NCBI GenBank assembly: GCA_937925845.1
Contig: CALAML010000047.1
Span: forward strand, 1 to 38,245
Direction of reading: 5' to 3'
DNA: 38,245 nt
DNA from: an uncultured Acidimicrobiales bacterium
GTDB taxonomy: Bacteria; Actinomycetota; Acidimicrobiia; Acidimicrobiales; CALAML01
Shown here: positions 33,025 through 34,131 of the stretch, piece after piece
Position numbering within the stretch: position 1 is the first letter of the stretch
Layout: the number at the start of each line of letters is the position of its first letter
Notes under the pieces: generated by a model
The model's input: the letters and a program-made list of their open reading frames with translations, nothing else
What the model was told of the DNA's origin: nothing
Databases searched by the model: none
Translations under genes and position numbers: made by a program

Positions 33025-34131
33025 CTAATTGGTCCACTTGGGGTAGTAGTTGGCCGGACCCATCTCGCGAACATCGCTGAGCCAGTCGCCGTCGTAGGGC
33101 CAGTCAGCCTCGGACCCCTCGGTTGGGCCCTGCCAGAATCGATTTAGGGGACCCTCGGGGCCGGGCTCGAGGGACCAGGCCTGCCGGCGATAGGCGAAGT
33201 TGTCGGGCACCAGTTCCTGGGCCGCTTTGAAGTGGGGTATTGCCGCAGCATGGTTCCCCGCTACCTCGAGATGGGTGGCCAACTCGAAGTGGGCATGGCC
33301 TCTGGCCGCGTCAGCGTTGCGTGGTCCGGACCGCTCCACCACCTGCTCGGGTGAGAGTGCGAACGGGCTCTCAGCACCGTTGGTGATCCAATCGCGCAAC
33401 GCCGCCTCGTAGGCCGGAGGGTCGGCCTCGATCTGCATGGCCTCGCCAAAGATCTCCAGCATGCGCGGCGGCAACTCGGCTGGATCGCCGATGTTCATGT
33501 TGCGCTCCATCTCGATCGATGGGGGCGCCGGTGCCGGTTCGGCGGGCCGGACGATCATGCCATCCTCATCGATCCACACCGCATTGGGGATGTTGATCAC
33601 CCCAAACAGCTCGGCCACCCGATGATGCTCGTCGATCAGCGACGGGTGCTCGGGGCTAGCGGCCTCGATGAAGGGACGACAGGCTTCGACGCCGGCGGCA
33701 TCGATGCCGACCGTCACCACCTCGACACCCTGCTCGGCCACTTGGCTGCGAAAGGCCTGCCACACGGGCAGGTCAGCCGAGCAACCTCAGTAGGGCGACC
33801 AGGCCACCAACAGCACCTTTTTGCCCCGGAGGGAGGCCAACTCGAACATCTCGCCGTCAACGGTGGGCAAGGTGAGGTTCGGGGCCTCGGCAGTGGCCAG
33901 GGCCCGCGAGCCGATCGACTCCGGACCGAGAGCCCAAAGGCCGGCATCGGCGTCATGAACCAGCGGTAGACCAAGTTGTGCGGCCAGTGGTTCCAGTTCA
34001 ATGGTGTCGCCCGTGATCTGCTCGGTGAGCGGAATGCAGACCTCCCCTTTGCAGGCCCCCTCCGGCTTGAGTTCCCAGCCAGTTCGGCTTTCGAAATCGG
34101 CCCGGTCGACGGTCAGCGTGTTGGTGATCAT
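33025..34131 (-). CDS. Probable selenoprotein: thioredoxin-fold (TlpA/redoxin-like) protein with in-frame TGA at the redox site
   Basis: Read through the TGA at 33787-33789, this is one 368-residue protein. Residues 1-80 are a leader domain with a CX4C motif (Cys27, Cys32). A redoxin domain starts near 81 (APNLTLPTVDGEMFELASLRGKKVLLVAWSPY is its beta-strand and loop pattern, residues 83-114). It reaches the redox site at residue 115 (TGA), Gly116, Cys117, followed by SADLPVW, the same layout as W-C-x-x-C-R-x-x-x-P in TlpA. The cis-Pro is Pro182 in INIPNAVWID. The C-terminal 100 residues have a TPR-like helical hairpin. Frame is kept on both sides, with no other stop, and a strong hairpin follows the TGA. 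A nonsense mutation is the alternative. Flavin-type redox genes lie upstream on the same strand. Confidence 0.8.
33731..33783 (-). promoter_or_regulatory. SECIS-like RNA structure directly 3' of the in-frame TGA
   Basis: Counting from the base after UGA in the mRNA, CCUGCC (15-20) pairs with GGCAGG (26-31) around the loop CGUGU. UGCUCGGC (4-11) pairs with GCCGAGCA (49-56) as an enclosing 8-bp stem; GGCUG (9-13) with CAGCC (39-43) is an alternative lower stem. The apical loop starts 20 nt after UGA with G as its second base. Bacterial SECIS elements lie in the coding frame just after UGA, with a small loop about 16-37 nt away and a G among the first loop bases, so the geometry fits. High GC makes chance stems common, so this is support, not proof. 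Confidence 0.6.

Follow-up and report, generated by a model that had tools for sequence, protein, structure and literature searches.

Gene organization and the in-frame TGA codon

The window, i.e. the whole stretch of 38,245 nucleotides analysed here, contains on its minus strand (34131-33025) one open frame of 368 codons, which is interrupted only by a TGA at 33787-33789 when that TGA is translated as a residue. The standard code breaks this frame into 114 and 246 codons; the first-pass annotation had described the region as two minus-strand frames lying in the same frame and split by this TGA alone, and translation confirmed this description. The features identified are as follows.

33025..34131, minus strand: putative selenoprotein gene of 368 amino acids, with TGA as codon 115 and TAG as the stop codon (translation and match to NF041054)
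33886..34131, minus strand: N-terminal domain, residues 1-82, with invariant C27 and C32 (CX4C) (alignment and structural model)
33547..33891, minus strand: ResA/redoxin-type domain, residues 81-195, with U115-G-C117 and cis-Pro182 (Pfam, AlphaFold2 model and structure matches)
33787..33789, minus strand: TGA predicted to be read as selenocysteine (U115), the single odd codon of the frame and kept at this site in most relatives
33756..33772, minus strand: SECIS-like hairpin CCUGCC-CGUGU-GGCAGG, beginning 14 nt past the UGA (folding and comparison of relatives)
33028..33462, minus strand: C-terminal region, helical from approximately residue 224 onward, with a TPR-like stretch at approximately residues 277-313 (Pfam, model and profile matches)

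The context of U115 is LLVAWSPY-U-GCSADLPVW, and the third-position GC contents of the two halves of the gene are similar (0.78 and 0.80). Because the GC content of the window is 65% and 10 of the 993 TGA codons in its six frames are likewise preceded by at least 114 and followed by at least 200 open codons, the open frame past the TGA is by itself weak evidence, and so is the earlier argument that 246 codons would be unlikely to stay open in a dead gene. That the frame extends beyond chance is indicated by homology across the TGA. The Pfam models AhpC-TSA and Redoxin both matched residues 81-195 above their cut-offs, with AhpC-TSA being the best Pfam model (51.6 bits), and the NCBIfam equivalog model NF041054 (WAxxUGC_long, 'ResA-like WAxxUGC motif-containing protein') matched residues 1-367 of 368 over model positions 1-353 of 354, with a score of 505.9 bits (cut-off 300); the TGA itself is retained in most relatives, as described below. 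The gene is thus an unexceptional representative of a selenoprotein family already known, as the full-length match to NF041054 and listings in the literature since 2008 indicate. This family has a wide distribution, and some genomes carry several copies.

Codon usage at site 115 among relatives

In 90 loci, a number that includes the window's own gene and some near-duplicates, the codon at site 115 is TGA in 85 and TGC in 5, and no other codon was found. These loci come from records titled Acidimicrobiales, other Actinomycetota, Chloroflexi, Proteobacteria, Acidobacteriota, and others. Within the same order, matches above the family cut-off were obtained in 54 of 298 genomes, and each of the matches listed has one TGA. 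The TGA form also occurs in a named strain, Pseudonocardia kunmingensis DSM 45301. Of the genomes sampled for SelA, all 11 carrying the TGA form had it (10 strong matches and 1 weak match), versus one of the five with the Cys form, although absence of SelA is a soft observation because most of the sampled genomes are drafts. The exception among the latter is Gordonia hydrophobica, which has the Cys form and yet possesses SelA, suggesting that losing the machinery does not by itself account for the loss of Sec here.

SECIS-like hairpin and codon constraint

The five inner base pairs of the hairpin and a G at loop position 1 or 2 are kept in 85 of 85 TGA loci, while the retention expected from the codon usage of the family is 36% per sequence, a value that counts sequences singly and ignores shared ancestry. 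All five pairs are kept in just one of the five TGC loci, the hairpin being degraded in the other four, and the mean folding energies of the TGA and TGC loci are -9.8 and -4.2 kcal/mol, respectively. When the register was slid by 1-3 nt, pairing fell from 98% to 22-66%. Codon choice is also restricted here: normalised codon entropy is 0.26 in the hairpin (five usable positions within residues 118-126) versus 0.72 (sd 0.14) across 49 conserved positions outside it. Strict covariation is small (3 compensatory cells) because the stem is almost invariant. The window's own hairpin showed no unusual stability against shuffled sequences (z = -1.0).

Selenium-insertion machinery and other selenoprotein candidates

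The genome (5.1 Mb, approximately 87% complete, 328 contigs) was found to contain selA (318 bits) and selB (269 bits), adjoining on one contig (C162), as well as selD (382 bits) and a tRNA-Sec with the anticodon TCA (66.5 bits, above the Rfam cut-off), so that all four components for which the genome was searched are present. The selD gene (L009, 1465-2670, plus strand) has an in-frame TGA of its own, in the context SHGAGUGCKLPPGE, which corresponds to the known Sec form of SelD.

Two paralogues were identified in the same genome. One (L110; G000:C68:10621-11733, minus strand) has TGA at the UGC site (VVVAWAPYUGCRYDL) and scored 429.7 bits to NF041054; the other (L111; G000:C260:30680-31555, minus strand) also has TGA (VVFASWUGCALDL), scored 205.2 bits, below the cut-off, and resembles a diverged subgroup present in many relatives. 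Further candidate selenoproteins are two thioredoxin-like genes in which an in-frame TGA occupies the position of the first redox Cys, namely L112 (1300-1887, plus strand; WAPWUGTC), which has a lipoprotein-like leader, and L113 (1435-2100, minus strand; WAPWUVRC). Counted on top of the UGC genes and SelD, they suggest that the genome may hold at least six selenoproteins. When the genome was scanned for UGC sites with a degenerate DNA pattern, nothing matched, and even the window's own site was missed, which leaves this negative result without weight. A tblastn search of plasmids yielded no full-length copy; the matches were confined to ResA-like domains and to a C-terminal remnant from Rhodococcus. 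The latter lies on plasmid pRhX5 of Rhodococcus erythropolis (L117, 2501-2838), where residues 236-365 are matched in two pieces with 43% identity; this region, partly annotated as 'hypothetical protein', appears to be a remnant lacking the redox domain.

Evidence for selenocysteine at position 115

The sequence features by which a bacterial selenoprotein is recognised were all found here: an in-frame UGA aligned with the Cys of homologues, selA, selB, selD, and tRNA-Sec in one genome, and a hairpin just 3' of the UGA with an early loop G, for which true covariation is thin. Selenocysteine at position 115 of this thioredoxin-fold protein is strongly supported by the genomic machinery, the restriction of the site to TGA or Cys codons, the conserved hairpin, and the freezing of codons within it, and the gene very probably encodes a selenoprotein of the NF041054 family, with Sec presumably being inserted at U115. 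The first-pass annotation had proposed a probable selenoprotein, a proposal that the machinery, the TGA/TGC-only site, and the SECIS-like hairpin bear out. Two of the outcomes that it had named as refuting, a genome lacking selenium-insertion genes and homologues with neither Cys nor Sec at the site, were looked for and not found. The case is a clean one, in that recognition from raw sequence was followed by support from the machinery, the homologues, and the hairpin.

Reading the TGA as a genuine stop, with either a pair of distinct proteins or a gene in decay as the result, agrees with the split of the frame under the standard code, but is very improbable given that the TGA is shared by nearly all loci, that the protein and its codon pattern are conserved across both halves, and that the hairpin and complete Sec machinery are present. 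An error of sequencing or assembly, the real codon being TGC or TGG, might be suspected in so fragmented an assembly; the likelihood of this is negligible, however, because independent genomes from several phyla share the identical TGA, and the hairpin is intact in the window's sequence.

Domain structure

The AlphaFold2 model (pLDDT 94.9, pTM 0.92) is closest to Bacillus ResA, with TM-scores (normalised by target) of 0.75-0.80 among the best rows, and the profile matches of the central domain are solved ResA-type structures; a ResA-like fold of this domain is therefore predicted with confidence. In the pairwise alignment with ResA, U115 lines up with the first Cys and C117 with the second, and the spacer between the two is one residue shorter here, in agreement with the earlier suggestions that the TGA stands for the first redox Cys and that U-G-C is one residue shorter than CxxC. 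D120 aligns with the acidic residue three past the second Cys of ResA, namely Glu80, for which a variant, E80Q (2h1b), has been studied. Across an alignment of 44 sequences that also covers Cys forms, C27, C32, U/C115, G116, C117, D167, N180, and P182 are invariant, so that the cis-Pro from which a continuing fold downstream of the TGA had been deduced is present in all relatives. The score to the ResA model NF002854 was 65.3 bits, below the cut-off of 170, and the protein is a relative of ResA in fold, not a ResA.

Both flanking regions noted previously, an N-terminal CX4C domain and a TPR-like tail, are present, although the TPR-like stretch is short. In the AlphaFold2 model, C27 and C32 lie on the two strands (25-28 and 31-33) of a tight hairpin. 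A Foldseek search of the N-terminal domain alone against solved structures gave nothing at E below 1, a search of viral contigs detected no relative, and a literature search on the guess that the domain is MerB-like found nothing. The domain was detected in 16 of 40 related genomes searched, and its three places in the home genome are exactly the three UGC genes; it has so far been found only on the NF041054-type selenoprotein family. Lacking a match to a solved structure, it is worth a biochemist's attention.

Proposed mechanism and function

SelB with Sec-tRNA(UCA) would supply ribosomes at the UGA (33789-33787), where the closely following hairpin is proposed to cause its reading as selenocysteine. 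Sec115 would then attack as the nucleophile and Cys117 resolve, generating a tight U-x-C selenenylsulfide that a cellular thiol donor would reduce, and binding of a partner or substrate is the probable role of the C-terminal TPR-like region. A thiol-disulfide oxidoreductase role is fairly probable, most likely in the cytosol, as no hydrophobic leader is apparent by eye. Electrons may be relayed via the invariant C27 and C32. The fuller version of this idea, in which the N-terminal domain is a dedicated internal redox partner and the strained selenenylsulfide of U115 and C117 is regenerated by its C27/C32 hairpin, is a speculative one that we consider unlikely, as is the relay itself; if true, such a self-contained relay would not have been previously described. 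The neighbours of the gene in the window (PNPOx-like, nitroreductase, luciferase-like, SDR, and NosD-like) are not kept beside homologues elsewhere, and the gene neighbourhood therefore gives no hint of substrate or electron donor. No report on the function of the NF041054 family was found in the literature.

A selenoprotein acting chiefly as a peroxidase (peroxiredoxin- or GPx-like), in which U115 would reduce hydroperoxides and the selenenic acid would be resolved by C117, has a lower probability, at roughly the level of the relay. The U-G context of the site, which resembles that of GPx, counts for it, as does the top Pfam score of AhpC-TSA, and there is a weak match to the glutathione peroxidase model PF00255 (GSHPx), which at 17.8 bits is nonetheless under the cut-off of 27. 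The site also lacks a Pro or Thr at the spacing required for a PxxxTxxC-type peroxiredoxin site, position U-3 being A or S in relatives rather than the Thr/Ser of Prx, and the nearest structures are ResA-type disulfide reductases. Although the family was named Prx-like in a 2008 survey (PMC2398784), the motif and the nearest structures argue, not decisively, against a peroxidase.

Comparison with known selenoproteins and ResA

The first-pass annotation regarded the selenoprotein as probably new; with an equivalog model and published inventories since 2008, this novelty is not supported. The ocean metagenome survey of Zhang and Gladyshev listed a 'Prx-like (UGC-containing)' protein with pfam00578 (PMC2398784), and reviews of 2022 and 2026 list a UGC-containing Prx-like protein or a UGC-containing TlpA disulfide reductase family protein (PMC9312934, PMC13188914). 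These published selenoproteins, compared by tabulated domain and motif alone, have the same AhpC-TSA/cd02966-type domain and U-G-C motif as the window protein. None of the papers searched contained the word WAxxUGC. NF041054 members share the UGC site and the length of the window protein; the motif in the model's name is WAxxUGC, whereas the window protein and its nearest relatives have W-S-P-Y-U-G-C, with S for A. The UGSC-containing selenoprotein (NF041046) has a similar motif name but carries U-G-S-C and is represented by a separate NCBIfam model, which the window protein did not match.

Bacillus ResA (PDB 1su9, 1st9, and 4nmu) has the same thioredoxin-like fold with 25-30% identity, and its redox pair, the following acidic residue (D120 here), and cis-Pro line up with those of the window protein. 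However, ResA is a single-domain CxxC protein, whereas the window protein has UxC and two extra domains and, unlike ResA, which is extracytoplasmic, carries no leader discernible by eye.
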